A stretch of DNA of 35,692 nt from Hydrogenophaga sp. (lineage in GTDB: Bacteria; Pseudomonadota; Gammaproteobacteria; Burkholderiales; Burkholderiaceae_C): positions 1 through 35,692 of the forward strand of contig JAGKSX010000059.1 of the NCBI GenBank assembly GCA_018993155.1. The letters run 5' to 3'. Position 1 is the stretch's first letter, and every line of letters starts with the position of its first letter. The notes below the pieces were generated by a model. It was given only the letters and a program-made list of their open reading frames with translations, ran no database searches and was not told the origin of the DNA. A program made the position numbers and the translations under genes. This document shows positions 2,091-22,343 of the stretch, in pieces.

Positions 2091-3065
2091 TCAGGCGCGG
2101 GCCATGGCCTGCATCCGGGCAATGATCTCCTCAGCTTGCAGCATGATCCGGTCGATCAGCTCCTGACAGGTGGGAATATCGTGGATCAGCCCTGCCACCA
2201 TGCCGCAGCTCCACGCGCCTTCGTCCATCGCACCTTCGGTCATGATCTTGGGGTAAACGCCTGCAACCTCGGGCAGGATGTCCTGAATGGTGATGGCATC
2301 GCCCAGCGCCTTTTCCTTCTGGATCAGGCGCTCGACCGCGGCATTGTTGAGCACGCGTTCGGTGTTCCTGAGCGGGCGCATCACCAGCCGCGTGTCAAGT
2401 TCGCTGGCGGCAAGGATCGCCTGCTTCACGTTGTCATGAACGGGCGCTTCCTTGGTCGCGATGAAGCGGGTGCCCATGTTCATCCCCTGCGCGCCCATCG
2501 CCAAGGACGCGACCAGACTGCGCCCGTCGGCCATGCCGCCGCTGGAGACAAAGGGGATTTCCAGCTCGTCCGCAGCACGGGGCAGCAGGATGAAGTTGGG
2601 CACGTCATCCTCGCCCGGGTGGCCGCCGCATTCGAACCCGTCGACGCTCACCGCATCGCAGCCGATCTCCTGCGCTTTCAGGGAGTGGCGCACGCTGGTG
2701 CACTTGTGGATCACCTTGATCCCGGCATCCTTGAGCGGCGGCAGCAGTTCGACCGGGTTGCGCCCCGCCGTCTCGACCACCTTCACGCCCCCTTCGATCA
2801 CTGCCTTGACGAGGCCCGGATAATCGGGCGGCGTCAGGGTCGGCAGGATGGTGAGGTTCACGCCGAAGGGCTTGTCGGTCATGTCCTTGCAGCGCGCAAT
2901 TTCATTGGCGAGCTTTTCAGGCGTGCCCTGCGTGAGGCCCGTGATGATCCCCAGCCCCCCGGCATTGGAGACCGCCGCCGCCATCTCGGCAAAGCCGACA
3001 TAGTGCATCCCCCCCTGAATGATCGGGTGCTGGATGCCGAACATTTCAGTGATGGCAGTCTTCAT
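2091..3065 (-). CDS. Nitronate monooxygenase-family NAD(P)H:flavin oxidoreductase
   Basis: A 324-residue TIM-barrel flavoprotein of the nitronate monooxygenase / 2-nitropropane dioxygenase family. The start is the ATG at 3065, giving MKTAITEMFGIQHPIIQGGM, the standard family opening, with a purine-rich gggagaga upstream. Typical elements are PIIQGGM, GGLGIITG, the FMN-binding segment VSVDGFECGGHPGED, the phosphate-binding part VSSGGMADGRS and GAQGMNMGTRF. Enzymes of this family oxidise nitronates with FMN and oxygen, or act as enoyl reductases or quinone reductases; the exact substrate cannot be assigned. Many Sphingomonadales carry this gene in lipid or aromatic catabolism contexts. It is divergent from the PAP2 gene at 3204. 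Confidence 0.88.
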   Translation of the reverse strand: MKTAITEMFGIQHPIIQGGMHYVGFAEMAAAVSNAGGLGIITGLTQGTPEKLANEIARCKDMTDKPFGVNLTILPTLTPPDYPGLVKAVIEGGVKVVETAGRNPVELLPPLKDAGIKVIHKCTSVRHSLKAQEIGCDAVSVDGFECGGHPGEDDVPNFILLPRAADELEIPFVSSGGMADGRSLVASLAMGAQGMNMGTRFIATKEAPVHDNVKQAILAASELDTRLVMRPLRNTERVLNNAAVERLIQKEKALGDAITIQDILPEVAGVYPKIMTEGAMDEGAWSCGMVAGLIHDIPTCQELIDRIMLQAEEIIARMQAMARA

Positions 3066-3203
3066 CTCGTGTCTCTCCCGTGCAAAGCCATGTTTGCGCG
3101 GGAGACAAGCCGAGTTGCGCAGGGCTTTCAAGCCTGCTTTTGAGAGGGCCTGCATACTCTGCGCCAAGCCGTAACGTCAGCCAGTCCCGGATTTTTCCTC
3201 GCC

Positions 3204-3800
3204 ATGCGCCTGCCTGCCATCCTCGCCCTTGTTGCCGCCATGATCGGGGGCACGAGTTTTGCCCTGCAAGGGCCGCTGCCGGGAGATGTCGCGGTGACAC
3301 TGGCGATGCAGGCGATGCTGGGAGCCGAACCGGGCTGGGCCGGGTGGCTGACCAATACGGCCAAGGCGCCGCTGCTGTGGGGCACGCTTACGCTTGCCAC
3401 GCTGCTGGCCGGATTGAGCGCCCCGCGCCCGCTGCGATGGGTGCGCGCGCTGGCGGTGCCGCTGGCTTATGCCTTGGCCTTTGCCGCCGACAAGGCCCTG
3501 CGCGCCGCGATCTTCGTGCCCCGCCCCGATCCGGCGCTGGTGCACGTGGCCGATCCCGCCACATCGAGCGGCCTGCCCTCGACCTTCGGCCTGGTCTACG
3601 GAGCGATCTTCGGGGTAGTGCTGCTGGCGCGGGGAGAGGCAAAAGGCCGCCTTGTCGCGGGCGTGCTGTTTGGCGTGGGGCTTGCCGCGCGTATCGTGCT
3701 CGGCGGGCACTGGCCAAGCCAGATGCTGGCCTCTGCCACGCTCGGCCTGCTGCTGGCCTCAGCGGCGCTGACCATGACCGCACGCCTGCGCCGGTCCTGA
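3204..3800 (+). CDS. PAP2-family membrane protein with degenerate catalytic motifs
   Basis: A 198-residue, very hydrophobic protein with about five or six transmembrane segments, fitting the PAP2 (type 2 phosphatidic acid phosphatase) fold. Motif 1 is present as R100-x6-R107-P108 with Arg for the usual Lys. Motif 2, normally PSGH, reads P125-S-T-F, so the histidine is missing. Motif 3 keeps R163-x5-H169 but ends in Gln173 rather than Asp. The family removes phosphate from lipid phosphates at the membrane, but loss of the motif 2 His suggests a changed or lost activity. The start at 3204 gives a normal membrane signal. The stop is 118 bases from the convergent YceI gene. Confidence 0.75.
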   Translation: MRLPAILALVAAMIGGTSFALQGPLPGDVAVTLAMQAMLGAEPGWAGWLTNTAKAPLLWGTLTLATLLAGLSAPRPLRWVRALAVPLAYALAFAADKALRAAIFVPRPDPALVHVADPATSSGLPSTFGLVYGAIFGVVLLARGEAKGRLVAGVLFGVGLAARIVLGGHWPSQMLASATLGLLLASAALTMTARLRRS

Positions 3801-3918: not shown

Positions 3919-4554
3919 TCAGCTGCGCGTAAAGGAGAGGTTAAAGGTCACCGGCACGGCAGGTGTGATCGAGGGCAGCTGGGCCAGCGCACGCAATTCG
4001 CCCAGTTCGTCGGTGAGGCCGAACATGTCGGTCGAGACAATCACCGGCGCGGTCGGCACCACGGTCACGCGGTCGGCCGAGACGCGGGTGACGAGCACCT
4101 CGGTTTCGATGTCGCTCGATGCGCCCTTGATCGTCACGTTCGCCTTCAGGGGCCGGGTCAGCGACTGGCCCACCGCAAGACCGGCAAAGGCGGCCGGGTC
4201 GAGCTTGGCCGTCACGCTCGCCTTTGGATTGCCTGCCACATCGAAGAAGATCTCGCGCATCCGTTCGTTGCGGATATCGACCCCGGTGTTGACCGAAGCC
4301 AAGTCGATGGCGAGGCTGGCGCTGCCATCGGGCGAGACGCTCCCCGAAAGGGTGTCGAAGCGATTGGCCTCGGCCACTTCGCCCGCCTTGATCGAGACAT
4401 AGGACAGCCGGGACCCCGCCGGATCGAGCGCCCAGGCCCCTTCGGTAACGGCAACAGGCGCGCTCGCCTCAGCCGGTGGTGCCTCAGACTCTGGCCCGGC
4501 GCAGGCGGCAAGGGAGAGGGCGGCGGCGAGTGGTAACAGGCGAAGCATCAGCAT
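3919..4554 (-). CDS. YceI-family lipoprotein
   Basis: A polypeptide of 211 residues beginning MLMLRLLPLAAALSLAACAG, a lipoprotein signal with lipobox LAAC, so it is likely tethered in the cell envelope. A second ATG six bases downstream (4548) is an equally good start. After an Ala/Pro/Glu linker the mature part has YceI features: W-x-LDPAGSRLSYVSIKAG, a RFDTLSGSVSPDGSASLAIDL stretch, VNTGVDIRNERMRE and FFDVAGNPKA. YceI proteins form a lipocalin-like barrel that binds polyisoprenoids or amphiphiles in the periplasm. It lies 61 bases downstream of guaA on the same strand; it converges with the PAP2 gene. An upstream in-frame start at 4659 would overlap guaA and hide the signal, so it was not used. 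Confidence 0.87.
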   Translation of the reverse strand: MLMLRLLPLAAALSLAACAGPESEAPPAEASAPVAVTEGAWALDPAGSRLSYVSIKAGEVAEANRFDTLSGSVSPDGSASLAIDLASVNTGVDIRNERMREIFFDVAGNPKASVTAKLDPAAFAGLAVGQSLTRPLKANVTIKGASSDIETEVLVTRVSADRVTVVPTAPVIVSTDMFGLTDELGELRALAQLPSITPAVPVTFNLSFTRS

Positions 4555-4615
4555 GAGGCCCGCGATATGCGATTTGGCGGCAGTGCGGAAGGGGCGGATC
4601 AGCGCGCGGCGCGGA

Positions 4616-6190
4616 TCACTCCCACTCGATCGTCCCCGGCGGCTTGGAGGTGTAGTCATAGACCACCCGGTTGATGCCCTTCACTTCGTTGACGATGCGG
4701 GTGGCCACGCGGGTCAGGAAGCTGGCGTCATAGGGGAAGACATCCGCCGTCATCCCATCTGTGGAGGTGACAGCGCGCAAGGCGCAAACCGAATCGTAAG
4801 TGCGCCCGTCGCCCATCACGCCCACGGTCTTGACCGGCAGCAGAACGGCGAAAGCCTGCCAAATCGCGTCATAAAGGCCCGCATTGCGAATTTCCTCAAG
4901 GTAGATCGCGTCGGCCTTCCTCAGGATGTCGCAGCGTTCCTTGGTGACTTCGCCGGGGATGCGGATCGCAAGGCCGGGGCCGGGGAAGGGGTGACGGCCA
5001 ACGAAGGCGGGCGGAAGGCCCAATTCGCGGCCGAGATCGCGGACCTCGTCCTTGAACAATTCGCGCAAGGGTTCGACCAGCGCCATGTTCATGCGTTCGG
5101 GCAGGCCGCCGACATTGTGGTGGCTCTTGATCGTGACGCTTGGGCCTCCGGTGAAGCTGACGCTTTCGATCACGTCGGGATAGAGCGTCCCCTGCGCCAG
5201 GAACTCGGCCCCGCCGATCTTGCGCGCTTCCTCTTCGAACACATCGATAAAGGTCTTGCCGATGAACTTGCGCTTGGCCTCCGGATCGGTGAGGCCCGCA
5301 AGCCCGCCGAGGAACAGTTCCTCCGCCTCAACATGGACCAGCGGGATATTGTAGTGATCGCGGAACAGGGTCACGACCTGTTCGGCCTCGTTCATGCGCA
5401 TGAGGCCGTGGTCGACGAAGACGCAGGTCAGCTGATCGCCGATTGCCTCGTGGATCAACACCGCCGCAACAGCCGAATCGACCCCGCCGCTCAGGCCGCA
5501 AATCACTCGCTTGTCGCCCACCTGTGCACGGATTTCAGCGATCTTGGTCTGGCGGAACTCGGCCATCGTCCAATCGCCTGCAAGCCCGCAGACGTGGCGC
5601 ACAAAGTTGGCGATCAGGCGCGCGCCATCGGGAGTGTGCACCACCTCGGGATGGAACTGCGTACCGTAGAACTTGCGCGCCTCATCCGCGATCACCGCGA
5701 AGGGTGCGCCATCCGAGGTGGCGACGATCTCGAATCCGGGGGCAAAGGCGGTGACCTTGTCGCCGTGGCTCATCCACACCTTGAGCATGCCGTGGCCTTC
5801 GGGGGTGGTGAAGTCGGCGATGTTCTTGAGCAGCGCCGTGTGACCCCGGGCGCGCACCTCGGCGTAGCCGAATTCGCGCGTGTGCGAGCCTTCCACCTTG
5901 CCGCCCAGCTGCTGCGCCATGGTCTGCATGCCGTAGCAGATGCCCAGAACCGGAATGCCGAGTTCGTACACCGCTTCAGGCGCCTTGTCGTCCACCTCGT
6001 ACACGCTGGCGTGGCTGCCGGAGAGGATCACGCCCTTGAGCTGCCCGTCGGCGGCGAACTCGCGCACCCACTCGCTGCTGACATCGCAGGGATGCACTTC
6101 GCAGTACACATGGGCTTCGCGCACGCGGCGGGCGATCAGCTGGGTGACCTGGGAACCGAAATCGAGGATGAGGATTTTCTGGTGCTGCAT
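4616..6190 (-). CDS. guaA: GMP synthase (glutamine-hydrolysing); chimeric between two taxa
   Basis: A 524-residue GuaA, which converts XMP to GMP using ATP and glutamine. The start [20 protein letters not shown] at 6190 is the usual one. The class I amidotransferase domain has Cys85 (GICYGMQ), His180 and Glu182 (QFHPE); the ATP-pyrophosphatase P-loop SGGVDS is at 234-239; the C-terminal dimerisation domain ends in PPGTIEWE. Length is normal for the family. Residues 1-137 read as Comamonadaceae (for example [14 protein letters not shown]), while residues after about 147 ([20 protein letters not shown] onward) read as Sphingomonadales. The switch falls in [10 protein letters not shown], bases 5750-5779. 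The ORF is intact, but it probably exists in neither organism. Confidence 0.9.
5750..5779. other. Probable chimeric assembly junction inside guaA
   Basis: This 30-base stretch encodes [10 protein letters not shown] (guaA residues 138-147), a motif present in both alpha- and betaproteobacterial GuaA. To its right (higher coordinates) all genes are of Comamonadaceae type; to its left all are of Sphingomonadales type. A shared word of this length is enough for a short-read assembler to join two genomes. The position is inferred from protein character and could be off by a few tens of bases. Confidence 0.75.
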
Positions 6191-6210
6191 GGCGTGACGG
6201 TGGACTTCTG

Positions 6211-6242
6211 AAAAAAACAAGGGTCGTCACGAAGGACGACCC
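6211..6242 (-). terminator. Intrinsic terminator / possible attenuator between guaB and guaA
   Basis: On the minus strand an 8-bp perfect stem (GGGTCGTC, 6-base loop, GACGACCC; bases 6221-6242) is followed by a T-rich tract (TTGTTTTTTT, 6211-6220). The tract ends only 20 bases before the guaA ATG at 6190. There is no room for a promoter between the two, so guaA must be transcribed through this hairpin. Confidence 0.8.
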
Positions 6243-6344
6243 GTTGGGCGAGCGGCCCCCCCATCCAGGGGCACCGCGGAACCGGCTTTGCCGGGCCGCT
6301 GGTGCCGCCCCTCGGGGGTGACGCCGCAGGCGGCGCGGGGGGTC
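6243..6344. repeat. GC-rich intergenic element with nested inverted repeats
   Basis: The spacer between the guaB stop and the terminator holds several inverted repeats: AGCGGCCC (6251-6258) with GGGCCGCT (6293-6300), CCGGC (6282-6286) with GCCGG (6290-6294), and CGCCG (6322-6326) with CGGCG (6331-6335). The overall character resembles dispersed palindromic intergenic repeats seen in Comamonadaceae genomes; that comparison is from memory and only one copy is in the window. Confidence 0.45.
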
Positions 6345-7973
<1,629 letters not shown>

Positions 7974-7986
7974 CTAAACTCCGCCA

Positions 7987-8559
7987 ATGCCTCAAAAACG
8001 CCCTTCGAAGCCGTCCTGGCGAGCGCCTCTGGCGGCGGGATTCCTGCTGCTGGTCTGCTCGACCGCCTCCGCGCAATGGGTCTGGAAGGAAGGTGATCGC
8101 AAGGTGTTCAGCGACACCGCACCCCCCGCCAGCGTGCCCGACAAGAACATCCTCAAGCGCCCCGGCGGCGGCAGCGCCCCGATGCCCGCGCCGGCAGCGG
8201 CCGCTCCCGCCAACACCGAGACCGGAGCAGCGTCCCCCGCGGGTGCGGCGCCTCAGGCGGCAGCCCCTCAGCTGCCCACGGTCGACAAGGAACTCGAAGC
8301 CAAGAAGAAACAGGCCGAACAAACCGAGGCCGCTCGCCTGAAGGCCGAGGAGCAGCGCGTCGCGCAGGCGCGCACCGAGAGCTGCAACCGCGCCAAGCAG
8401 GCCAAGGCCACGCTGGATTCCGGCGTGCGCCTGGCCACCACCAATGCCAAGGGCGAGCGCGAGGTCATGGACGACAAGGCCCGCACCGCCGAGGCCAAGC
8501 GGCTGGATGACGTGATGCGCAGCAACTGCGGGCCGATGCCCAAGGCCGGCCCTCAGTAA
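7987..8559 (+). CDS. DUF4124 domain-containing exported protein
   Basis: A 190-residue protein with an N-terminal signal peptide (hydrophobic core AAGFLLLVCSTASA, cleavage near residue 29). The mature protein begins with a DUF4124-type segment, WVWKEGDRKVFSDTAPP, a short beta-rich motif common in Comamonadaceae periplasmic proteins. An Ala/Pro-rich linker follows, then a charged, probably coiled-coil helix (KELEAKKKQAEQTEAARLKA), and a C-terminal part with two cysteines (ESCNRAKQ and RSNCGPMP). The function of DUF4124 proteins is unknown; an envelope role is inferred. It is divergent from guaB and overlaps the convergent rnfH gene by 7 bases. Confidence 0.85.
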   Translation: MPQKRPSKPSWRAPLAAGFLLLVCSTASAQWVWKEGDRKVFSDTAPPASVPDKNILKRPGGGSAPMPAPAAAAPANTETGAASPAGAAPQAAAPQLPTVDKELEAKKKQAEQTEAARLKAEEQRVAQARTESCNRAKQAKATLDSGVRLATTNAKGEREVMDDKARTAEAKRLDDVMRSNCGPMPKAGPQ

Positions 8560-8882
8560 CCGGCCTTCGACCCCGGGCGCCGGCGGGCGAACAGCCCCGT
8601 GGAGCGTGCGCCCTGCCCCATGAAGCGTTCGCGGCGCGCCACCTTCGGGTCCACGCGCAACCCACGAACCACCTCCACCCGGTCACCCTCGCGCAACACC
8701 CGGTCCCAACCGGCCTTGCGCCCCCAGATGCCGAGCGCCAGCGGTTCGGCCTCAATGTCGGGAAAGCGCAGCAGCCAAGCCGCCTGATCGAGTGCCTGGC
8801 GCAGCGTGCAACCCTCGGGCACGTCGAGCACCTCTTCCACCACCTCGCGGGGCGACGGAGCGTGAATCAGTGTGATCTTCAT
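8553..8882 (-). CDS. rnfH: RnfH-family ubiquitin-like protein
   Basis: A 109-residue small protein with the RnfH/UPF0125 beta-grasp pattern: a first strand MKITLIHAPSP, then VPEGCTLRQALDQA, a LALGIWGRKA turn and the terminal LREGDRVEVVRGLRVDPKVARRER, which is the conserved family end. The family has a ubiquitin-like fold and unknown biochemical function; some members are found with Rnf electron transport operons, but here it sits beside the ratA-like gene, a common arrangement in proteobacteria (smpB-ratA-rnfH). The ratA stop lies 10 bases upstream of its start, so the two are probably cotranscribed. Confidence 0.88.
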   Translation of the reverse strand: MKITLIHAPSPREVVEEVLDVPEGCTLRQALDQAAWLLRFPDIEAEPLALGIWGRKAGWDRVLREGDRVEVVRGLRVDPKVARRERFMGQGARSTGLFARRRPGSKAGY

Positions 8883-8892
8883 GGGATCGTGA

Positions 8893-9339
8893 TCAGTCCG
8901 CGCCGTACACCTGATCGGCCCGCTTCACGAAAGCGTCCACCAGGCTGCCGGCGATCTTGTCGAACACCGGGCCGACCAGGGCCGCCAGGGCCGAACTGGC
9001 GAAGCCGTAGCTCAGCTTGAAATCGACCTTGCAGGCTCGCTGGCTGCCGTCCCCCAAGGGGGTGAACTCCCACACGCCATCGAGCTGCGAGAACGGCCCG
9101 TCCACCAGCTCCATGTGCACCTTGCGGTCGACCTCGTGCGTGTTGCGGGTGGTGAAGCTCTGATGCAGGCCGCTGATGGCGATGCCCACGCGGGCCACCA
9201 TGCCCGCTTCGTTTGTTTCCAGCACCTGGCCCTGATCGCACCAGGGCAGGAACTGGGGGTAACGCTCGATGTCGGTGACCAGCGCGAACATTTCGTGTGC
9301 GCTGTGCCAGAGCAAAACGGACTTGTGAATGGTTTTCAT
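8893..9339 (-). CDS. ratA: RatA/CoQ10-type SRPBCC (START-like) protein
   Basis: A 148-residue protein of the polyketide cyclase / Coq10 type. The start MKTIHKSVLLWHSAHEMFALVTDIERYPQFLPWCD at 9339 matches the family opening well; longer frames upstream run through smpB in antisense and were discarded. The rest has the helix-grip pattern ending in LSYGFASSALAALVGPVFDKIAGSLVDAFVKRA. Family members bind ubiquinone-like lipids (Coq10) or, in E. coli (RatA), are reported to bind the 50S subunit and block subunit joining; which role applies cannot be told. It is divergent from smpB with a 48-base gap and is followed by rnfH. Confidence 0.88.
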   Translation of the reverse strand: MKTIHKSVLLWHSAHEMFALVTDIERYPQFLPWCDQGQVLETNEAGMVARVGIAISGLHQSFTTRNTHEVDRKVHMELVDGPFSQLDGVWEFTPLGDGSQRACKVDFKLSYGFASSALAALVGPVFDKIAGSLVDAFVKRADQVYGAD

Positions 9340-9358
9340 ACAATCCAACTCATTGTAT
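9338..9358. promoter_or_regulatory. Perfect inverted repeat in the ratA/smpB divergent spacer
   Basis: ATACAAT (9338-9344) and ATTGTAT (9352-9358) form a perfect 7-bp inverted repeat with a 7-base spacer, overlapping the ratA start codon. Each arm contains a TACAAT -10-like hexamer on one strand, so it may be a pair of facing -10 elements or an operator. No convincing -35 boxes were found. Confidence 0.35.
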
Positions 9359-9387
9359 TGGCCTGAAATGGCCGCACCTTCCGCTTC

Positions 9388-9882
9388 ATGTCCACCAAAA
9401 GCAGCAAAGAATCTTCCACCAAAGGCGTTGACAGCCGCATCGCCGAGAACCGCAAGGCGCTCTTCAACTACGCGATCGAAGAACGCTTTGAAGCGGGCAT
9501 GGTGCTGGAAGGCTGGGAGGTCAAGGCCTTGCGCGAAGGCAAGGTGCAGCTCACCGACGGTTATGTGGTGATCCGCGAGGGCGAGATGTTCCTCATCGGC
9601 TGCCAGATCAACCCGCTGCACACCGCCTCATCCCACGTGAGCCCGGACTCGGTGCGGACCAAGAAGCTGCTGCTGCACAAGGAGCAGATCCGCCGCCTGG
9701 TCGGCAAGGTCGAACAGAAGGGCTATGCCCTGGTGCCGTTGAACCTGCACTGGAAGACCGGCAAGGTGAAATGCGAGATCGCACTGGGCAGGGGCAAGGC
9801 CGAACACGACAAACGCGACACCATCAAGGACCGCGAAGGCAAGCGCGAGGTCGAGCGCGCGATGAAGTCGCGCAGCCGCTGA
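9388..9882 (+). CDS. smpB: SsrA-binding protein SmpB
   Basis: A 164-residue SmpB, which binds tmRNA and brings it to stalled ribosomes for trans-translation. Visible features are the N-terminal [35 protein letters not shown], the OB-fold body with the [16 protein letters not shown] and NPLHTASS segments, [13 protein letters not shown], and the basic C-terminal tail [15 protein letters not shown]...KSRSR that reaches into the decoding centre. It is slightly longer than usual at the N-terminus because of a Ser/Thr/Lys-rich lead ([13 protein letters not shown]). Divergent from ratA, a widely conserved arrangement. No intrinsic terminator with a proper T tract was found downstream. Confidence 0.96.
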
Positions 9883-9975
9883 GGTTTTTTTTCCCTGGGG
9901 CGGGAATAAACCCGCCACAGCCGGCGTTCATCCCTGTGCAGAGCCTGTCTGCCCATACCTTCAACGGAGAACGCC

Positions 9976-10353
9976 ATGAAATTCCTGATTCCCCTGACCC
10001 TGGCAACAGCCCTGCTGGGTGGCTGCGCCTCGATGTCGTCCGCCCCGGCCCCTGCCATGGCCAGCGATGGCGTGCTGGTCGGCCCCAACCGCATGACCCT
10101 CTACACCTTCGACCGCGACGTGGCGGGCAGCGGCAAGTCGGTCTGCAACGGGCCCTGCGCCACCAACTGGCCGCCGCTGATGGCCGGTGGAAACGACAAA
10201 GGCAACGGCGACTACACCGTCATCACGCGCGACGACGGCCAGAAGCAGTGGGCCCTGAAGGGCAAGCCGCTGTACTACTGGGCCAAGGACACCAAGCCCG
10301 GCGACAAGACCGGCGACGGCTTCAACAACGTCTGGCGCGTGGCCAAGCCCTGA
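9976..10353 (+). CDS. COG4315-type secreted lipoprotein
   Basis: A 125-residue lipoprotein: MKFLIPLTLATALLGGC is a signal with lipobox LGGC (Cys17). The mature part is the predicted lipoprotein with Yx4D repeats (COG4315, secreted repeat family): GRMTLYTFDRD-like LYTFDRD, CNGPCATNWPPL, the DDGQKQWALKGKPLYYWAKD segment and PGDKTGDGFNNVWRVA. All hallmark parts are there, including the paired cysteines. The biochemical role is unknown. The gene lies 39 bases upstream of an ECF sigma factor, and such lipoproteins are commonly found with ECF/anti-sigma pairs, which suggests coregulation in an envelope or oxidative stress response; that is inference. Confidence 0.88.
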   Translation: MKFLIPLTLATALLGGCASMSSAPAPAMASDGVLVGPNRMTLYTFDRDVAGSGKSVCNGPCATNWPPLMAGGNDKGNGDYTVITRDDGQKQWALKGKPLYYWAKDTKPGDKTGDGFNNVWRVAKP

Positions 10354-10392
10354 GCCTCCCACAGCCCACCACGGCCATTGCCGCGCCGAGAC

Positions 10393-10926
10393 ATGAGACG
10401 CGCCGAGCTGATCGACCAGATTCCCGGTCTGCGCCGCTACGCGCGCGCGCTCACCGGCGACCCCTGGGCGGCCGATGACCTGGTGCAGGACACGCTGGAG
10501 CGGGCCTGCGCCAGGTGGCGGCTCTGGACGGTCGGCACGGATCTGCGGGCCTGGCTTTTCACGCTCATGCACAACCTGCACGTCAGCGACCTGCGCCGGG
10601 CGCAACGTCGCGAGGGCAGTGGCCTGCCGGTGGACCCGGACGATGTGGCGGCCGAGCTGGTGGCGCCCGACGCCGCGCAGGACCTGGCCATGGACCTGCA
10701 GCGCTGCCTGTTGCGCCTGCCCGAAGAACAGCGCGTGGTGTTGCTGCTGGTGAGCCTGGAGGACATGAGCTACGAGCAGGTGGCCCGCATCACCGGGAGC
10801 CCGATCGGCACCGTCATGTCGCGGCTCTCGCGCGCCCGCACCCGCCTGCAGGCGCTGATGAACGCGGCGGCCCAGAGCGAACCGCCCGATGCCTACGCTC
10901 CTCCCCACCTGAGGCGGCTGAAATAG
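10393..10926 (+). CDS. ECF-family RNA polymerase sigma factor
   Basis: A 177-residue group IV sigma factor. Region 2 is seen as LRRYARALTGDPWAADDLVQ and DTLERACARW, with the -10-recognising RAWLFTLMHNLHVSDLRRA following. Region 4 is LPEEQRVVLLLVSLEDMSYEQ with the helix-turn-helix VARITGSPIGTVMSRLSRAR. There is no long extra domain. The start MRRAELIDQIP at 10393 aligns with the family; a short non-ATG extension to 10378 is possible but unneeded. It is followed after 20 bases by an anti-sigma-like membrane protein, so the two likely form a regulatory pair. The target regulon is not visible; the COG4315 lipoprotein just upstream is a candidate. Confidence 0.93.
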   Translation: MRRAELIDQIPGLRRYARALTGDPWAADDLVQDTLERACARWRLWTVGTDLRAWLFTLMHNLHVSDLRRAQRREGSGLPVDPDDVAAELVAPDAAQDLAMDLQRCLLRLPEEQRVVLLLVSLEDMSYEQVARITGSPIGTVMSRLSRARTRLQALMNAAAQSEPPDAYAPPHLRRLK

Positions 10927-10946
10927 CACCGCCCGCAAGACCGACC

Positions 10947-11762
10947 ATGGACACGCCCCTCACCCAGCCGCTGACCGACGCCGAGATCAATCGCCTGCTC
11001 GATGGCGAGGTGCAAGGTGCCGAGCGGGACGCCCTGTTGCAGCGGCTGCAGGGCGATCCACACGGCCGCGAGCGCCTGGCCCACTGGCAAACCCAGCGCG
11101 ACGCCATCCGCCAGTTGCATGCCGGCCTGCTGCAGGCACCCGTGCCGCCCGGCATGCGGGAAGCCGCGCACCGCGCGAGCGATGCGCAGGCCCGCGTGTC
11201 CGGCTGGTGGCGCTGGGGCGGCATGGCGGCCGGCATCGTGCTGGCCTTCGGCGTCGGCCGTTTGTCGAACCACGAATGGCCGGGCGGGCCCGCGCCAGGT
11301 TCTGCCCCCTTGGCCACCCTGCCCGCCTTCGCGCGTGATGCATCGGTCGCCCACGCGGTGTACTCCCCCGAGAAGCGGCACCCGGTTGAAGTGGGGGCGG
11401 CGGATCAGGAGCACCTGGTGCAATGGCTGTCGCGCCGCACCGGCAAAGCGCTCAAGGTGCCGCGCCTCGATGCCTTGGGCTACGAACTCGTCGGTGGCCG
11501 CCTGCTGCCGGGCGACGTGGGTGCGCGCGCGCAGTTCATGTTCCAGAATGCCCAGGGCGTGCGCATTACCTTGTACCTCGGTGCGCTGGACCTCACCACG
11601 GTGCCCGCCGAGACCGGCGAGGAAACCGCCTTCCGTTTCGCGCAGGACGGCCCGGTACCGGGCTTCTACTGGGTCGACCAGGGCTTCGGCTACGCGCTGA
11701 GCGGCCCGCTGAGCCGGGACGCGCTCATGGCCCTGGCCCAGGCCGTGTACCAGCAGCTCTAG
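10947..11762 (+). CDS. Membrane anti-sigma factor
   Basis: A 271-residue protein with the layout of a transmembrane anti-sigma factor: a cytoplasmic N-terminal domain opening with LTDAEINRLLDGEV (zinc-less ASD-like helices, residues 10-60), one transmembrane segment (GGMAAGIVLAFGVGRL, about 91-106), then a periplasmic domain of about 160 residues. The start is the ATG at 10947, 20 bases after the sigma factor stop. The typical HxxxCxxC zinc motif is absent. It would hold the ECF sigma at the membrane until an envelope signal releases it. Assignment rests on topology and gene order; no sequence motif in the periplasmic domain reveals the signal. Confidence 0.85.
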   Translation: MDTPLTQPLTDAEINRLLDGEVQGAERDALLQRLQGDPHGRERLAHWQTQRDAIRQLHAGLLQAPVPPGMREAAHRASDAQARVSGWWRWGGMAAGIVLAFGVGRLSNHEWPGGPAPGSAPLATLPAFARDASVAHAVYSPEKRHPVEVGAADQEHLVQWLSRRTGKALKVPRLDALGYELVGGRLLPGDVGARAQFMFQNAQGVRITLYLGALDLTTVPAETGEETAFRFAQDGPVPGFYWVDQGFGYALSGPLSRDALMALAQAVYQQL

Positions 11763-11768
11763 GCACCG

Positions 11769-12869
11769 TCAGCGCAGATGCCGCAGCGGGTGCGCGTCCG
11801 CCGCCCAGGGGCTCTCGAAGAAGGCCGCGACCTGCGCAGGCGTCACGTCTTCGAGGCGAGCCGGATTCCATCGGGGCGCATGGTCCTTGTCCACCGCCAG
11901 GGCGCGGATGCCCTCCACCGTTTCGCTGGCCGAGCCGGGGCGCAGGTGGAAGCAGCGGTGCACCATGTCGCGCTCCATGCGCAGGTCGTCGGCCAGGCCC
12001 ATGCCGCGCGCGCGGCGGATCTGCTCGAGCACCACATGCAGCATCAGCGGCGAACGCTGGCGCAGCGTGACAGCGGTCTGTTGGCACCACGTGTTGTCGG
12101 AGGTTTCGAGCGCGGCCATGATCTGCAGCACATCAGGCAGGTCGAAGATCCGGTCCAGCTCCTTCTTCGGCCACGTCATCGGTGCCAGGGTGGTGCTCAG
12201 ATGGCTCACGCACCAGCGCTCCACCGAGTCGCCGTTCTCGAACGGCGTGCGTTCGAGCGAGGCCCACAGACCGGGCAGGCGTCCCGAGTCGATGAAACCG
12301 TCGGCCAGGCCCCCGTTGATGGCCTCGCGACCCTTCAGCACATGGCCCGTCAGGGCGAGGTACTCGCCCAGCCGGCCGGAGCAGCGGCTCAGGAAGTAAC
12401 CGCCACCCACGTCGGGGAACAGGCCGATGTTGGTCTCGGGCATGGCCAGCATGCTGCGCTCGGTGATGATGCGCAGGCTCGCCCCCTGGCTGATGCCCAT
12501 GCCGCCTCCCATCACGATGCCGTCCATCAGCGCGATGTACGGCTTGGAGTAGGTGTGGATCAGGTGGTTGAGCGCGTATTCCTCGGTGAAGAAGTCCTCC
12601 AGCGCCGCGTCGCCGGCCAGGGCCGCCTGGTGGAAGAAGCGGATATCGCCGCCGGCGCAGAAGGCGCCGAACGGTCCTTCCTTGTTGACGCCCCGCACCA
12701 CCACCGCGAGCACGGCGTCGTCGTTCTGCCAGTCCTTCAGCGCCTGCGTGATGCGCCGGATCATGTCGAGCGACAGCGCGTTGAGGGCCTTGGGCCGGTT
12801 CAGCGTGATGCAGCCCACGCGCCCGCGGATTTCGGCAACGACATGGGTTTCGGGTGTCAGCGAGGTCAT
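11769..12869 (-). CDS. 3-hydroxyisobutyryl-CoA hydrolase-like (enoyl-CoA hydratase/isomerase family)
   Basis: A 366-residue crotonase-fold protein. Its length and the extended C-terminal half match 3-hydroxyisobutyryl-CoA hydrolase of valine degradation rather than a 260-residue enoyl-CoA hydratase. The oxyanion-hole motifs are FCAGGDIRFFH (residues 70-80) and GGGMGISQGA (121-130); the catalytic acids lie in PETNIGLFPDVGGGYFLSR (Glu145 and Asp153). The ATG at 12869 gives MTSLTPETHVVAEIRGRVGCITLNRP, the normal opening; longer frames upstream overlap the neighbouring gene. It lies 22 bases downstream of the DMT transporter, so cotranscription is likely. It could also be a short-chain hydratase with another CoA ester; the HIBYL hydrolase assignment is the best fit. 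It converges on the anti-sigma gene with a 6-base gap. Confidence 0.88.
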   Translation of the reverse strand: MTSLTPETHVVAEIRGRVGCITLNRPKALNALSLDMIRRITQALKDWQNDDAVLAVVVRGVNKEGPFGAFCAGGDIRFFHQAALAGDAALEDFFTEEYALNHLIHTYSKPYIALMDGIVMGGGMGISQGASLRIITERSMLAMPETNIGLFPDVGGGYFLSRCSGRLGEYLALTGHVLKGREAINGGLADGFIDSGRLPGLWASLERTPFENGDSVERWCVSHLSTTLAPMTWPKKELDRIFDLPDVLQIMAALETSDNTWCQQTAVTLRQRSPLMLHVVLEQIRRARGMGLADDLRMERDMVHRCFHLRPGSASETVEGIRALAVDKDHAPRWNPARLEDVTPAQVAAFFESPWAADAHPLRHLR

Positions 12870-12891
12870 CTTCGTTCTTCCGTTCTGTCGA

Positions 12892-13899
12892 TCAATGTGG
12901 CTGTCTGTCCACGGTCTGGATGCGGGGGGTGCCGACGCGCGAGCGCCAGCCCAGCAATTCGTTGAGCACCAGGGCACCGATGACCAGCGAGCCGCCGGTC
13001 AACACCTCGGGGCCGGGCACTTCGCCCGCGCCGGCCCAGGCCAGCAGGATGCCGAAGATCACCTCCAGCAGCGCCAGCAGCGAGACCTCGGGCGCCTTGA
13101 GCGAACGGGCGCACACGACGGCCAGCGCGCAGGGAATGGCCAGCTGCACCAGGCCGAGCAGGGCCAGCCAGGCCACGTCGGTGCCCGTGGCCTCGAACGG
13201 CAACGCCAGAGGCAGCGTCGCCAGCGAGGACAGGAGGCCGCCCAGCAGCACCGAGGGCACGAGGTCGATCTTTTCGCCATGGGTCTGGCCGCGTTGCACC
13301 ACGGTCCAGTTGATGGCAGCGGCCACCGGCACGCACAGTGCCGCCAGCGAGCCGGCCACCAGGCCACCGGTCTGTGTGGCGGGGTCGCTGAAGGCCTGCA
13401 GGAACTGGCTGCCGTACATGTACACGATGCCCGCGCCGGCCGCCACGATGGCCAGCCAGGTGCGCAGCGCGAGCCGCTGGCCGAGCACCGCGCGCGCCAC
13501 CAGCGCGGTGAACAGCGGGCCCACCGACATGATGATGAGCACGTTGGCCACGGTGGTGAAGGTCAGCGCCAGCATGAAGGCGGTGAACATCACGCTCCAG
13601 CAGACGCCCGAGATCCAGAACGCCTTCGAGCGCGCCAGCACGCCCCAATGGCGCTCGAGCATTCCCTGCCCGGGGTCGTCGGCGATCTGCCCCGCCGCGC
13701 GGTCGGCGGCGCGCCACCAGGGCAGGATCACCAGCAGTGAAAGCGCGGTGAAAGCGCTGCGCCAGAACGTGACCTCGAAGCGCGCCGCCGACTCGAGCTG
13801 GCGCGAGACCACCCCCGCGATCGACCACATCAGGGTCACCACGATCATCATGAACACCGCCTGGGTGTGCGTCAGGCGACTGAGGGCACGAAAGGGCAT
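12892..13899 (-). CDS. DMT-superfamily (EamA) transporter
   Basis: A 335-residue integral membrane protein with about ten hydrophobic segments in two repeated five-helix halves, as in the EamA/RhaT drug-metabolite transporter family. Typical pieces are the first helix QAVFMMIVVTLMWSIAGVVS, FWRSAFTALSLLVILP, and near the end LSLLALLEVIFGILLAWAGAGEVP followed by TGGSLVIGALVLNELL, the conserved EamA ending with the E-P pattern. It likely exports or imports small metabolites across the inner membrane; substrate unknown. The start MPFRALSRLTHTQ at 13899 lies 54 bases downstream of typA, with a terminator in the gap, so it probably has its own promoter or depends on read-through. Confidence 0.9.
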   Translation of the reverse strand: MPFRALSRLTHTQAVFMMIVVTLMWSIAGVVSRQLESAARFEVTFWRSAFTALSLLVILPWWRAADRAAGQIADDPGQGMLERHWGVLARSKAFWISGVCWSVMFTAFMLALTFTTVANVLIIMSVGPLFTALVARAVLGQRLALRTWLAIVAAGAGIVYMYGSQFLQAFSDPATQTGGLVAGSLAALCVPVAAAINWTVVQRGQTHGEKIDLVPSVLLGGLLSSLATLPLALPFEATGTDVAWLALLGLVQLAIPCALAVVCARSLKAPEVSLLALLEVIFGILLAWAGAGEVPGPEVLTGGSLVIGALVLNELLGWRSRVGTPRIQTVDRQPH

Positions 13900-13910
13900 G
13901 GTCTGTTCGT

Positions 13911-13942
13911 AAAAAAGGCCGCGTCCCGGGAGACAACGGCCT
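13911..13942 (-). terminator. Intrinsic terminator downstream of typA
   Basis: On the minus strand AGGCCG (13937-13942) pairs with CGGCCT (13916-13921), with further internal pairing, and the 3' arm runs into six T (13911-13916). It lies 11 bases after the typA stop and would end the rimP-to-typA operon before the DMT transporter gene. Confidence 0.8.
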
Positions 13943-13953
13943 GTGCGGAGCGA

Positions 13954-15776
<1,823 letters not shown>

Positions 15777-15780
<4 letters not shown>

Positions 15781-16778
15781 GATGTGAGTTCCGGTGAGGT
15801 TTCCAGGATTTGCTGTATTTCGGAGGGGCTCAGCAGTCGCCCCGGGATCAACTCCCCGGCCTGGGTGTGGGCACTGCCCAGCAGCACGGAAGATGGGAGG
15901 GAGAATGGGTCGGAAGTCGTGTGGGGCAAGGGACCGAAGACCGCCACGCGGGCGCTGTCAGCCCAGCCGCCCCGGCGGCGCACGCCGCTGAGAAAGCGCC
16001 CGGCATCGTCGGCGCCGAGCGTGACAGGGTCATGACCTACCAGCAGGGACTGCACCGGCAGCAGCCGCGCCAGCCGGTCCTCTTCGCCCAAGGCTTCCAG
16101 CGCATCCAGTGCGATGCATTGCGAGACGTCGAATGGGCCGGTGGCGGTGCGCCGCAGCGCGATGAGGTGGCCGCCGCAACCCAGGGCTTCGCCAATGTCT
16201 TCACCCAAGGTGCGGATGTAGGTGCCCTTGCTGCAGCGCACCCGCAGGCGCAGTTGCGGGGCCTCGCCCTGCAGCTGCATGTCCAGCAGCTCCAGATCGT
16301 GGATGACGACGTGGCGCGCTTCGCGCTCCACCGTCTCGCCGTCCCGCGCGTATTCGTAGAGCGCCTTGCCGTCCTTCTTCAAGGCGCTGTGCATGGGCGG
16401 CACCTGGGCAATGGGGCCGGTGAAGCGGTCGAGCCCCTCGACCACCTGCCCCGCCGTGCAGGTCACGGGGCGCGACTCGATGACGTCGCCCTCGGCATCG
16501 CCGGTGCGGGTCTTCACGCCCAGGCGCACGGTGGTCTCGTAGGTCTTGTCCGCGTCCAGGTGGATCTGGCTGAATTTGGTGGCGGCGCCGAAACACAGCG
16601 GCAGCACCCCGCTGGCCAGCGGGTCGAGTGTGCCGGTGTGGCCCGCTTTTTCCGCGCGCAGCAACCACTTGGCCTTCTGCAAAGCCTGGTTGCTGGAGAG
16701 ACCCAGCGGTTTGTCGAGCAGCAGCACCCCATGCACAGGGCGCCGCTGCACCCGTGTGCGTGGCGCGTGCATGCTCAT
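15777..16778 (-). CDS. truB: tRNA pseudouridine(55) synthase TruB
   Basis: A 333-residue TruB, which makes pseudouridine 55 in the T arm of tRNAs. The N-terminal catalytic domain has [19 protein letters not shown] and the catalytic Asp52 in [19 protein letters not shown]. The [11 protein letters not shown] motif and [19 protein letters not shown] follow; the C-terminal part resembles the PUA-like region of betaproteobacterial TruB and is somewhat longer than in E. coli. Start [13 protein letters not shown] at 16778 overlaps the rbfA stop by 4 bases and its own stop overlaps the typA start by 4, so the three genes are translationally coupled. No missing residues noted. Confidence 0.97.
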
Positions 16779-17146
16779 TCTTCCTTTGAACGAGAAGACA
16801 CGGCCTTGGAAATCAAGGCGTTCATGTCGGCCGCGCGCTCGGTGGTGCGGTCGAACACGAAATGCAGCGTCGGCACGGTGTGGATGTGCAGGCGCTTGAA
16901 CAGGCCATTGCGCAGGAAACCGGCCGCCGCGTTGAGGCCCTGCAGGGTCTCATCGGGGTTGCCGGTCAGCAGGCTGAAGAACACCTTGGCGTGCGCGTAG
17001 TCGGGCGTGACCTCCACCGCATTGATCGTGACCATGCCCACCCGCGGGTCCTTGAGCTCGCGCGCGATCAGCTCGGCCAGATCCCGCTGGATCTGGTCGG
17101 CCACGCGGAAACCGCGGTTGGGGGTGGATGATGCTTTGCGGGGCAT
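16775..17146 (-). CDS. rbfA: Ribosome-binding factor A
   Basis: A 123-residue RbfA, a type II KH-domain protein that helps mature the 30S subunit by acting near the 5' end helix of 16S rRNA, and matters in the cold. Visible family features: [29 protein letters not shown], the [15 protein letters not shown] strand, and [20 protein letters not shown]. The start [12 protein letters not shown] at 17146 lies 3 bases after the infB stop and its end overlaps the truB start by 4 bases. Its place between infB and truB is the standard order in proteobacteria. Confidence 0.97.
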
Positions 17147-17149
17147 GGT

Positions 17150-20017
17150 TTACAGCGTGCGCGCCACTTCCTTGACTTCGAAGAATTCGAGCTGGTCGCC
17201 TTCCTTGATGTCGTTGTAGTTCTTCAGCTTGATACCGCACTCGAAGCCTTCCTTGACTTCGCGCACATCGTCCTTGAGGCGCTTGAGCGTGTCGATCTCG
17301 CCGGTGTAGACCACCACGTTGTCGCGGAGCAGACGGAAATGCGCGTTGCGCGTGACCATGCCGGAGGTGACCATACAGCCAGCGACCGTGCCAATCTTGG
17401 AGGCCACGAACACGGTGCGGATCTCGGCCGAGCCGATGACCTCTTCGCGCTTCTCGGGCGCCAGCATGCCGGACATGGCCGCCTTCAGATCGTCCACGGC
17501 GTCGTAGATGATGTTGTAGTAGCGCAGGTCCACGTCGTTGCCCTCGGCCAGCTTGCGCGCGCCCACGTCGGCACGCACGTTGAAGCCGATGATCACCGCC
17601 TTGGAGGCGATGGCCAGGTTGACGTCCGATTCGCTGATGCCACCGACCCCGGCGAACACCAGCTGCACCTTGACCTCTTCGGTCGAAAGCTTGAGCAGCG
17701 AGGCCGACAGCGCTTCCTGCGAACCCTGCACGTCGGCCTTGACGATGATGGGCAGCAGCTTGACCTCGCCCGCCGTCATGTCGGAGAACATGTTCTCCAG
17801 CTTGGCGGCCTGTTGCTTGGCCAGCTTGGTGTTGCGGAACTTGCCGGCACGGTAGGTGGCGATTTCACGCGCACGGCGCTCGTCGGTCATCACCATGAAG
17901 TCGTCGCCAGCCTGAGGCACTTCGGACAGGCCCTGGATTTCCACCGGAATCGACGGGCCGGCCGCCTTGATGGGCTTGCCGTTCTCGTCGAGCATGGCGC
18001 GCACGCGGCCCGAGGTCTGGCCGACCAGGATCACGTCGCCGGTCTTGAGCGTGCCGCTCTGCACCAGCACCGTGGCCACGGCACCGCGTCCCTTGTCCAG
18101 GCGCGCTTCGATCACCAGGCCCTTGGCCATGGCATCCACCGGCGCCTTGAGCTCCAGCACTTCGGCCTGCAGCAGCACCTGTTCGAGCAGCGCGTCCACG
18201 CCCGCACCGGTCTTGGCCGACACGCCCACGAATGGGGTGTCACCGCCAAACTCTTCCGGCACCACTTCTTCGGCGATCAGTTCGGAACGAACCTTCTCCA
18301 GGTTGATGCCCGGCTTGTCGATCTTGGTCAGGGCCACGACCATCGGCACACCCGCCGCCTTCGCGTGCTTGATGGCTTCCCTGGTCTGTGGCATGACGCC
18401 GTCGTCGGCCGCGCAGACCAGGATCACGATGTCGGTGGCCTGGGCACCGCGGGCACGCATGGCGGTGAACGCCTCGTGGCCCGGGGTGTCGAGGAACGAG
18501 ATCATGCCGCGCTCGGTTTCCACGTGGTACGCACCAATGTGCTGCGTGATGCCGCCGGCTTCGCCCGCAGCCACCTTGGCACGGCGGATGTAGTCGAGCA
18601 GCGAGGTCTTGCCGTGGTCGACGTGGCCCATGACGGTGACCACCGGCGCGCGAGGCAATGCCTCGGCGTCCTGTTGCGCGGCTTCCTCGTCGGTGAAGGC
18701 CTCGGGGTCGTCCAGCGCGGCCACGATGGCCTTGTGGCCCAGTTCCTCCACCACGATCATGGCGGTGTCCTGGTCCAGCGGCTGGTTGATGGTGACCATC
18801 TGGCCCAGCTTCATCAGCTGCTTGATGACCTCGGACGACTTCAGGCTCATCTTGTGCGCGAGTTCGGCCACGGTGATGGTCTCGGGCACGTGCACTTCGA
18901 TCACCTTGAACTCGGTCGGTGCCACGAAGCTGCTCTGGCCGGCATCGCGCGAATCGCGGTCGTTGCGGCGGCCACGTGGGCCGCCACGCCAGTTGGAACG
19001 CCCGGCGCTGGTGTCGCCACGGGTCTTGATTTCCTTCTTCTTGGCCGCGTCGTCCTTCCAGGTGGAGGACAGGTTCTCGGACTTGACTTCCTTCTTGCCC
19101 GCGGCACCGCCCGGAGCGGCCGCCGTGGCGCCGGCCGTGGCGGGCGCCTTGCCTGGCGTGCCCGCTGGCTTGTGCAGCGTGCCCTTGATGCCCGCCTTCG
19201 GGTCGGCAACAGGCGCCGGCTCCGGCTTCTTGGCCACCAGGGTCCTGGCGGGAGCGGACATCATCGCGCGGATGTTCGCGGCTTCGGCCTCGGCCTTGCG
19301 GCGGCGCTCCAGCAGGTCCTGCGCGCGCAGTTCCTCGGCCTTCTTGGCTTCGGCGTTCTTGTCGGCCAGAACGCGGGCAGCGGACTCGCGCTCCAGCGAA
19401 GCCGTCTTGGCCTGAGCGTCCTTGCTCGCCTTGGCGGCGGCGGCCTCATCCACCGAAACCGGCGCGGCGGCCTCGGCGGCGACGCGCGCGGCAGCCTCAG
19501 CGGCTTCGACCGCGGCTGCACGCTCCTGCTCGGCCTTGGCCTGGCGGGCTTCCTCGGCCTCGCGGGCCTGGCGCTTCTGCGTCAGTTCTTCTTCCTGGCG
19601 GCGCAGCAGCTCGGCCTGGCGGCGCGCGTCTTCCTCGCGCCGGGCCAGTTCCTCGGTGTCGATCGCGGGTGCGGTCGGCGCGGCTTCGGCCACGGCCTCG
19701 GGCACAGCCACCTCGTCGTCGCGCTTGATGAAAGTGCGCTTCTTGCGCACTTCCACCTGGATGGTGCGGGCGCGCCCGGTCGCATCGGCCTGCTTGATCT
19801 CGGAGGTCGATTTCTTGACCAGGGTGATCTTCTTGCGCTCACCCCCGGCCGTGCCGTGGCTGGCCTTGAGGTGGCCGAGCAGCGACTGCTTGTCGGATTC
19901 GGTGACCGCATCGGTCCCGGAAGTCTTGGGCACTCCGGCTGCTGTGAGTTGCTCCAGCAGGACGGAAGTGGGCTTGTTCAGCTCGGCAGCCAATTCGGCG
20001 ACGGTGGTACTGGTCAT
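17150..20017 (-). CDS. infB: Translation initiation factor IF-2
   Basis: A 955-residue IF-2, which brings fMet-tRNA to the 30S subunit and drives subunit joining. The ATG at 20017 gives [16 protein letters not shown], the IF2-N subdomain start; an upstream in-frame ATG at 20074 overlaps nusA and is less likely. A long Ala/Glu/Lys/Arg-rich charged linker (about 100-360) is followed by a second IF2-N-like segment, the G domain and domains II to IV. G1 is GHVDHGKT (464-471) and G3 DTPGH is intact. G4 reads TKID rather than the textbook NKID, which I recall as usual for this bacterial group. The C-terminal C2 domain is complete. It follows nusA after 31 bases and precedes rbfA after 3. Confidence 0.97.
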
Positions 20018-20048
20018 GGGTTCTTTTCTCCGCTGGGGCCTCCGCTGG

Positions 20049-21548
20049 TCAGTTCGTGGATTGCGCTTCGTCACCGGTGAACCAGTGCGCGCGTGCCAGC
20101 ATGATCAGCGCCGTGGCCTCTTCAGGCGTCTGTGCGGTGATGTCGGTGAGTTCGTCGGTGGCCAGGTCGGCCAGCTCGTCGCGGGTGTGGACACCGGCGT
20201 CGGCCAACTTGGCGATCAGCTCGGGTGTCACGCCTTCGAGGTCGCGCAGGTCCTGCGAGACTTCCTCGACGCTTTCTTCCCGCGCGATTTCCATCGTCAG
20301 CAGGGCGTCCTTGGCGCGCGTGCGCAACTCGTTGACGGTGTCTTCGTCGAAAGATTCGATCTCAAGCATTTCCTGCAGCGGCACGTAGGCCACTTCCTCG
20401 AGGCTGGTGAAACCTTCCTCGATCAGGATGTCGGCGATCTCCTGGTCCACGTCCAGCTTGGCCATGAACACCTTGCGGATGCCGTCGGCCTCTTCGGCCT
20501 GCTTCTGCGCCGATTCGTCGGCGGTCATGATGTTGATGCGCCAGCCGGTCAGTTCCGAAGCCAGGCGCACGTTCTGGCCGCCACGGCCAATCGCGATCGC
20601 GAGGTTTTCCTCATCGACCACCACGTCCATCGCGTGGCGCTCTTCGTCCACCACGATGGAGACCACGTTGGCCGGGGCCAGCGCGCCGATCACGAACTGC
20701 GCCGGGTCTTCCGACCACAGCACGATGTCCACGCGCTCGCCAGCAAGCTCGTTGGTCACGCCGTTGACGCGCGAACCGCGCACACCGACGCAGGTGCCGA
20801 TGGGGTCGATGCGCTTGTCGAAGCTGTGCACGGCGATCTTGGCGCGCGAACCCGGGTCGCGGGCGCAGGTCTTGATCTCCAGCAGGCCTTGCTCGATCTC
20901 GGGCACTTCCTGGCGGAAGAGCTCGATCATGAAGGACGGGGCCGAGCGCGACAGAAGGATGGGCGCGCCGCGCAGCGTCAGGTCCACCTCCATGATCATG
21001 GCTCGCACGCGGTCGCCGGTGCGGAAGTTTTCCTTGGGGATCATCTCGCCGCGCTTGAGGCGGCCTTCAACCCGGCCGCTCTCGACGATCAGGTCGCCCT
21101 TGTCCATGCGCTTGACGGTGCCCACGAAGATCTTGTCGCCGCGCGACATGAAGTCGTTGAGCAGCATCTCGCGCTCGGCGTCGCGGATCTTCTGCAGGAT
21201 CACCTGCTTGGCGGCCATCGCGCCGATGCGGCCGATCGGCACGCTTTCCACCGGCTTCTCGATGTAGTCGCCCTCCTCGATGTCGGCGAGTTCCTCGCGC
21301 GCATCGCTGAGCATTTCTTCGGCATCCGGGTTCTGCAGGCCGGCCTCATCGGGCACGACCAGCCAGCGGCGGAAGGTTTCGTAGGCGCCGGTGTCCGGGT
21401 CCATCGCGACGCGGATGTCGACATCGCCCTTGTAGAGTTTCTTGGTGGCCGAGGCCAGTGCGAGCTCCACGGCGCCGAGCACCACGTCGCGCTCGACGTT
21501 CTTCTCGCGGGAGATCGCATCGATCAGCATCAACATTTCGCGGTTCAT
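20049..21548 (-). CDS. nusA: Transcription termination/antitermination protein NusA
   Basis: A 499-residue NusA. In order: the N-terminal RNA polymerase-binding domain ([20 protein letters not shown]), an S1 domain (about 137-201), KH1 with VGVRGSR (254-260), KH2 with IGRGGQNV (320-327), then two acidic helix-hairpin-helix repeats typical of proteobacterial NusA ending at DEAQSTN. NusA binds RNA polymerase and nascent RNA and modulates pausing, termination and antitermination. In E. coli it also regulates its own operon at leader terminators, and a terminator-like hairpin lies in this operon's leader (22260-22292). It sits 51 bases after rimP and 31 before infB, the standard order. Confidence 0.98.
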
Positions 21549-21599
21549 TTCACTCGCCCACCTTTCCGAATAGCTTTTCCGTAGTCACAACGTTTTCTC

Positions 21600-22199
21600 T
21601 CATTCATCGCCCGGCGCAGCGGCCGCGCCAGGGGCCTGCCGGCCCTTGAAATTCACGATCGGCGCAAGCCGCGCCTGCTGGACATCCGCCAGCGCAAAAG
21701 CCAGGGCCTGCAGCGGCACGGGCGCGCGCTTCTTGCTCACGCGCTGCCCCGGCTTGGGTTCGGGCGCATCGCTCCAGACCACCTGCCACTGCACACCGTC
21801 GTCGGCACGTTCGAGCGTGCCGCGAAATTTCTTGCGGTTCGCCGCCACATCGGTCCCCGTGGCGCCGATCGGCGCCTTCAGGGTCAGGTCCACCACGTGG
21901 CCTTCGAACCGCACGTAATCGATCTCGCGCTTGAGCGGGCGATCAATGCCCGGCGAGCCCACTTCGAGGCGCCGGTACTCCAGACCTTCCACTTCCAGCA
22001 GGTACTGCAGCTGGCGCGTGACCTTCTCGCAATCCTCCACCGTCACAAAGCGCTCGGCGGGCATCGGCTGCCCCTCCACGGGCGCCTGCCAGGGCCAGTC
22101 GATCGTCACCCGCAACAGACCGCCAGCGGAGCGTTCGAGTTCCACCAGGTCAAAGCCCAGTCCGGTGACGGTCTGCTCTACGGTGTCTTGCCAAGCCAT
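21600..22199 (-). CDS. rimP: Ribosome maturation factor RimP
   Basis: A 199-residue RimP needed for 30S maturation. The start MAWQDTVEQTVTGLGFDLVELE at 22199 matches the family; a longer frame to 22337 would read through the terminator hairpin and promoter and was rejected. Characteristic elements: LLRVTIDWP, VTVEDCEKVTRQLQYLLEVE, the YRRLEVGSPGIDRPLKREIDYVRFEG stretch (family signature SPGIDRPL) and the C-terminal SH3-like domain. The C-terminal tail after the KK-rich segment is longer than in E. coli, as is common in Burkholderiales. It is the first gene of the rimP-nusA-infB-rbfA-truB-typA operon. Confidence 0.95.
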   Translation of the reverse strand: MAWQDTVEQTVTGLGFDLVELERSAGGLLRVTIDWPWQAPVEGQPMPAERFVTVEDCEKVTRQLQYLLEVEGLEYRRLEVGSPGIDRPLKREIDYVRFEGHVVDLTLKAPIGATGTDVAANRKKFRGTLERADDGVQWQVVWSDAPEPKPGQRVSKKRAPVPLQALAFALADVQQARLAPIVNFKGRQAPGAAAAPGDE

Positions 22200-22259
22200 T
22201 CGTGTGGTGTCTGCCCAGGGTTCGCCCCCGGCGGTCCGTGGGGCCAAAAGCGTTCGGCC

Positions 22260-22292: not shown

Positions 22293-22307
22293 GGTCGTGA
22301 AGCCAGC

Positions 22308-22337: not shown

Positions 22338-22343
22338 CCTCGC

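Follow-up and report, generated by a model that had tools for sequence, protein, structure and literature searches.

A cross-class chimeric guaA on a contig very probably misjoined from two organisms

Metagenome-assembled genomes often contain chimeric sequences, as stated in a review (PMC10523443). The closest described system is the inter-species chimeric contig, a misassembly in which two arms of different organisms are joined in a word of a conserved gene and binned with the majority organism, and the stretch of DNA analysed here (the window, which is the whole of contig C126, 35,692 bp) resembles it in these points. It departs from the usual case in joining two classes inside one gene with the frame kept, where annotation sees an intact gene, and in having arms similar in G+C, so that a GC step would not reveal the join. 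The product of homology-facilitated illegitimate recombination is alike in having one junction in a homologous stretch; in C126, however, the second junction is not seen, and the identity at the first does not exceed 33 bp, against a background of 65–71%. The gene concerned encodes GuaA, the glutamine-hydrolysing GMP synthetase, with which the conceptual protein shares the GATase and GMP_synt_C domains and the motifs GICYGMQ, FHPEV, and SGGVDS, to which we ascribe catalytic roles; unlike a genuine GuaA, the chimeric 524-residue version is tied to no single organism.

The assembly that holds C126 (4.9 Mb over 176 contigs; completeness 94.2%, contamination 3.3%) is probably a metagenome bin. Its guaA ORF is a cross-class chimera and is real as sequence: conceptual GuaA lies over the cut-offs for both PF00117 (GATase) and PF00958 (GMP_synt_C), and all three motifs are kept, GICYGMQ from one class and FHPEV from the other. 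The preliminary description had the frame preserved across a conserved ten-residue motif at 5750–5779, and so we find it: the motif comprises GuaA residues 138–147, its coordinates are confirmed, and the frame is open over all 524 residues.

For comparison we used an “alpha” set of 80 Sphingomonadales loci from named genomes (the best 80 of 589 relatives found with the chimera as query) and a “beta” set of 12 loci from relatives in the assembly's own genus (12 out of 23 listed genomes of that genus). GuaA residues 1–137 have a mean identity of 0.931 (0.839–0.964) to the 12 same-genus relatives and of 0.468 (maximum 0.511) to the Sphingomonadales, while residues 148–524 have a mean identity of 0.591 (maximum 0.602) to the former and of 0.885 (maximum 0.973) to the latter, the best match, at 97.3%, being from Erythrobacteraceae. 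Residues 1–137 and those beyond 147 had been assigned to different classes, and the separate comparison (93%/47% versus 59%/88.5%, same-genus/Sphingomonadales) agrees. Taken in 12-residue blocks, the two identity curves cross between the blocks starting at residues 133 and 145.

The switch can be placed more narrowly by two diagnostic codons. At codon 137, the window and 12/12 beta genes have AAG, against CAG or CAA in 80/80 alpha genes; at codon 148, the window has GCC, against GAG or GAA in 12/12 beta genes. The switch is thus confined to the 33 bp at 5749–5781, the “hinge,” at the conserved WMSHGDK codons. All 80 alpha genes have at least three gap codons within residues 128–137 (window 5780–5809), positions that are filled in the window and in the betas. 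The whole 33-mer is present in 2 of the 80 alpha and 1 of the 12 beta guaA genes, and it is possible, judging from these sequences, that the true parents shared the entire hinge. Among the 960 alpha–beta guaA pairs, 570 (summed from the table of pairs) have an exact word of at least 22 bp in common, and in 345 the longest shared word lies at the hinge site.

Separate trees for residues 1–137 and 148–524 (24 alpha and 12 beta rows) place the window with the betas in the first and with the alphas in the second, each main split with support of 100/100, and the rows nearest to the window in the second tree are L016 and L017 (89/86). Forcing residues 1–137 beside L016 and L017 is rejected (p-AU 2.5e-21), as is forcing residues 148–524 beside L106 (p-AU 3.2e-7). 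A looser constraint, which fixes only the side of the long central branch, alpha or beta, to which the window belongs, is not rejected (p-AU 0.33 and 0.072).

The composition of the two arms changes as well. The tetranucleotide profile of the left arm correlates with alpha reference DNA at r = 0.72 and with beta reference DNA at r = 0.39, and that of the right arm (5782–34000) at r = 0.908 with beta and r = 0.685 with alpha. Held-out pieces of matching size show differences of the same sign, of 0.080–0.323 for alpha (15 loci) and of 0.118–0.312 for beta (12 loci). Of the two profiles whose comparison the preliminary description proposed, the tetranucleotide signature changes between the arms and the G+C is alike in both.

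The gene order of the left arm (with ABC ATPase, nitronate monooxygenase, YceI, and guaA among the pieces that match) is that of five Erythrobacteraceae-type loci (L016, L017, L018, L019, and L022), with DNA identities of 72–89% per aligned piece, and in 6 of the 8 loci listed the alpha alignment stops at 5781. Pieces of the arm are matched in 6/6 whole genomes (those behind the same five loci and L020), in one of which, G087, about 6.6 kb separates guaA from the next matched piece, and at E 1e-50 or better in at least 112 of the 114 genomes of G084's genus, among the matches listed. The source species was not found, the best pieces being 90–91% identical among the matches listed, of which the nitronate monooxygenase reaches 91%. 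A search of 66 other genomes of the host genus (E 1e-20, four candidates scored per genome) did not find the left arm: it returned only homologues of guaA (65–71%) and of nitronate monooxygenase (65–77%), with nothing in 6 genomes, and neither the junction nor the tract was found. None of the plasmid records holds 80% of the arm, and five left-arm ORFs scanned besides guaA have no integrase domain. Every gene left of the join had been described as of alphaproteobacterial type, and the aligned stretches of the arm agree with this.

The right arm aligns in order to same-genus loci, for example to L106 over 6332–9884 (guaB to smpB) and 11763–16312 at 81–83%, and its 33.7–34.3 kb portion is matched in same-genus genomes. 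The arm is assigned to the beta class by the best named IF-2 matches in the plasmid collection, Niveibacterium and Neisseria, both of which we take to be betaproteobacteria; no plasmid record holds 80% of 6332–9884. The companion claim, that all genes right of the join are betaproteobacterial, holds by alignment for 5782–9884, 11763 to about 16.4 kb, and 33.7–34.3 kb, while for 9885–11762 and 16.4–33.7 kb it is one of composition only, and the low-GC tail is left unassigned. A segment of ≈1.9 kb at 9885–11762 separates smpB from an enoyl-CoA hydratase-like gene. In 6 of the 8 same-genus loci listed its flanks are adjacent, which makes it look like an insertion in the genome of C126; its ORFs appear by eye to encode a small lipoprotein, an RNA polymerase sigma factor, and an anti-sigma-like protein. 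The ORFs 3′ of guaA also vary among the 12 same-genus loci (L096–L107), and in L098 and L105 the first long ORF is a phage-type integrase.

Table 1. Coordinates of the features of the window (contig C126), with the strand and the evidence for each.
Feature	Coordinates	Strand	Evidence
Left arm, Erythrobacteraceae-type chromosomal DNA, from inside the ABC transporter ATPase gene to the 3′ two thirds of guaA	1..5748	.	Gene order, identity, tetranucleotides
Fragment of an ABC transporter ATPase gene, truncated where the contig begins	3..368	-	PF00005; 86–89% DNA identity to L016–L019 and L022 from 1 to 303–327
Nitronate monooxygenase	2091..3167	-	PF03060; 86% DNA identity to L019 and L022 over 2090–3143
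PAP2-superfamily ORF	3204..3800	+	PF01569
YceI-like protein	3919..4659	-	PF04264; within block 3915–5781, aligned to L017 at 82%
Conceptual guaA, 524 aa, chimeric (residues 1–137 beta, 148–524 alpha)	4616..6190	-	ORF, identities, Pfam, trees, diagnostic codons
33-bp hinge, longest stretch that the alpha and beta parents can share, judged from relatives; join inside	5749..5781	-	Codons 137/148
Right arm, DNA of the same genus as the assembly (with the 5′ part of guaA, guaB, smpB, bipA, infB, and others)	5782..34341	.	Ordered alignment to same-genus loci; tetranucleotides
Right contig end, 78 bp identical to the end of contig C170, inverted orientation	35615..35692	.	Contig-end comparison

The ends of the contigs themselves provide evidence on the assembly. 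We compared 122 contig ends (two of them unreadable) from 62 of the 176 contigs and found five pairs overlapping by exactly 22 bp, one pair overlapping by 78 bp (the right end of C126 and C170), one pair overlapping by 16 bp, and two ends whose final 21 bases coincide. The same comparison moved into the interior of the contigs gave no 22-bp overlap; its only matches, of 54 and 150 letters, are in our reading the C170 pair and the unreadable contig. Because of the five 22-bp overlaps, the word of the assembler was probably about 22 bp and so shorter than the hinge; the 78-bp and 16-bp overlaps mean, therefore, that the word length was not single or that some overlaps have another cause. The 78-bp overlap had itself been considered as the assembler word and was dropped once the 22-bp overlaps appeared. 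The comparison is accordingly between a hinge of up to 33 bp, as judged from relatives, and a word of about 22 bp, as judged from five overlaps alongside two of other lengths.

If the contig is a misjoin, the 3′ part of the beta guaA would be expected on another contig. It was not found in the assembly, though it could be outside the bin, and its absence fits a lost contig as well as a real replacement. A gene cluster with FkbM lies downstream of guaA within the fetched stretch in 4 of 12 same-genus relatives, in L106 directly after it. Contig C142 of the same assembly was considered as the other half of the join and rejected: the FkbM cluster is there, but not at a contig end, and guaA is not with it. 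By eye, the cluster on C142 (L128, L129) adjoins OmpA-like and sensor kinase-like genes. Other Erythrobacteraceae contigs were sought in the bin with GcrA, which we assume to be an alphaproteobacterial marker, and gave no match, the control matching Caulobacter but also Sulfolobus; the 17.5-kb neighbourhood of L018 matched the bin outside C126 at best at 69% over 1.5 kb. A single joined contig needs no further Erythrobacteraceae contig in the bin.

The best-supported reading, in which we have high confidence, is that the junction in guaA is an assembly misjoin of two organisms. The preliminary description had already proposed this, and its proposal is upheld by two arms that keep the gene orders of two unrelated genome groups, by the tetranucleotide switch, by the shareable 33-bp word, and by the five 22-bp overlaps. 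Part of the chromosome of an Erythrobacteraceae organism (1 to about 5781) would have been fused to that of the bin's organism (from about 5749 rightwards). Both genomes would carry guaA, the two copies could be exactly identical over as many as 33 bp at the WMSHGDK codons, and an assembler using words of about 22 bp, the length suggested by the contig ends, would have been unable to separate them at the hinge. Were the competing paths (the 5′ part of the alpha guaA and the 3′ part of the beta guaA) thinly covered, as uneven coverage might have left them, the assembler could have crossed between the two genomes. As both guaA genes are homologous and in the same frame, the false gene remains open. 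We infer that no physical molecule carries the junction.

One argument of the preliminary description is weaker than it seemed, namely that a real recombination should alter a segment and not both whole flanks: base 1 of the contig already lies within the alpha arm, only 5.7 kb of the alpha flank is visible, and the two borders of the tract are not seen together in one molecule, the far one being outside the contig. A real cross-class recombination, in which Erythrobacteraceae DNA paired at the guaA hinge, was joined illegitimately elsewhere, and replaced the 3′ part of guaA, could take advantage of this hidden border. It would also sit well with a join where the parents may be exactly identical, a setting that homologous recombination favours too, with the frame and motifs kept in GuaA, and with a host guaA 3′ part that is not found in the assembly. 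Such one-sided homology events exist; for conjugation in E. coli, one study gives a frequency of 3x10^-10 per recipient cell (PMC3240628). Here the anchor would offer no more than 33 identical bp between guaA genes otherwise 65–71% alike; the left arm keeps a foreign composition and a foreign gene order, with no integrase domain in the ORFs scanned; and the search of the 66 other host-genus genomes described above did not find the event, although a recent one need not be shared. We therefore consider it very unlikely that a natural one-step import of Erythrobacteraceae DNA via a 33-bp anchor has produced a hybrid GMP synthetase, with a glutaminase domain part beta and part alpha.

There are two further explanations. 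A chimeric molecule made during library preparation, by template switching at the shared word in PCR or whole-genome amplification, and then assembled faithfully would give the same sequence as a misjoin, and a shared stretch of 33 bp would be enough for template switching; such molecules are, however, usually rare against the true ones, and we regard this origin as extremely improbable. The idea of an integrative element adjoining guaA comes from islands that appear to insert there in the host genus: of the 10 relatives in which the ORF downstream of guaA was scanned, 2 (L098 and L105) have a phage-type integrase there, and guaA may mark a hotspot of insertion in the genus. In C126, however, the switch falls within the gene rather than at the 3′ end, the left arm follows in order the DNA that surrounds guaA in Erythrobacteraceae, and no integrase is found among the five left-arm ORFs scanned besides guaA, all of which makes an element scarcely credible.

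With the junction read as an assembly misjoin, the chimeric guaA is most likely not a real gene. It is nevertheless intact, in frame, and equipped with both diagnostic domains; its domains and motifs being complete, the conceptual protein will therefore pass annotation and would be named GuaA, and trees or transfer scans could mistake it for a cross-class gene transfer. C126 also adds 5.7 kb of alphaproteobacterial DNA to the genome of another organism, with an overall G+C that gives nothing away. The contig is best treated as two fragments, 1–5748 of Erythrobacteraceae type and 5782 onward of the host, with the 33 bp between them assignable to either. If the 22-bp overlaps reflect the word of the assembler, other conserved genes in this assembly could carry the same kind of join.

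Finally, the right end of the contig has features of its own. A tRNA-Ser lies at 34170–34259, beyond which the G+C falls to 0.49–0.56, and the matches listed from the 66 other host-genus genomes extend only to about 34404. The stretch 34260–35692 contains a truncated AAA ATPase (best PADLOC matches PDC-M29A and AriA) overlapping a 158-residue ORF for which Pfam and PADLOC gave no match, and it is perhaps a tRNA-linked island with a defence-like gene. As the last 78 bp of C126 are those of an end of C170 in inverted orientation, C170 probably continues C126.
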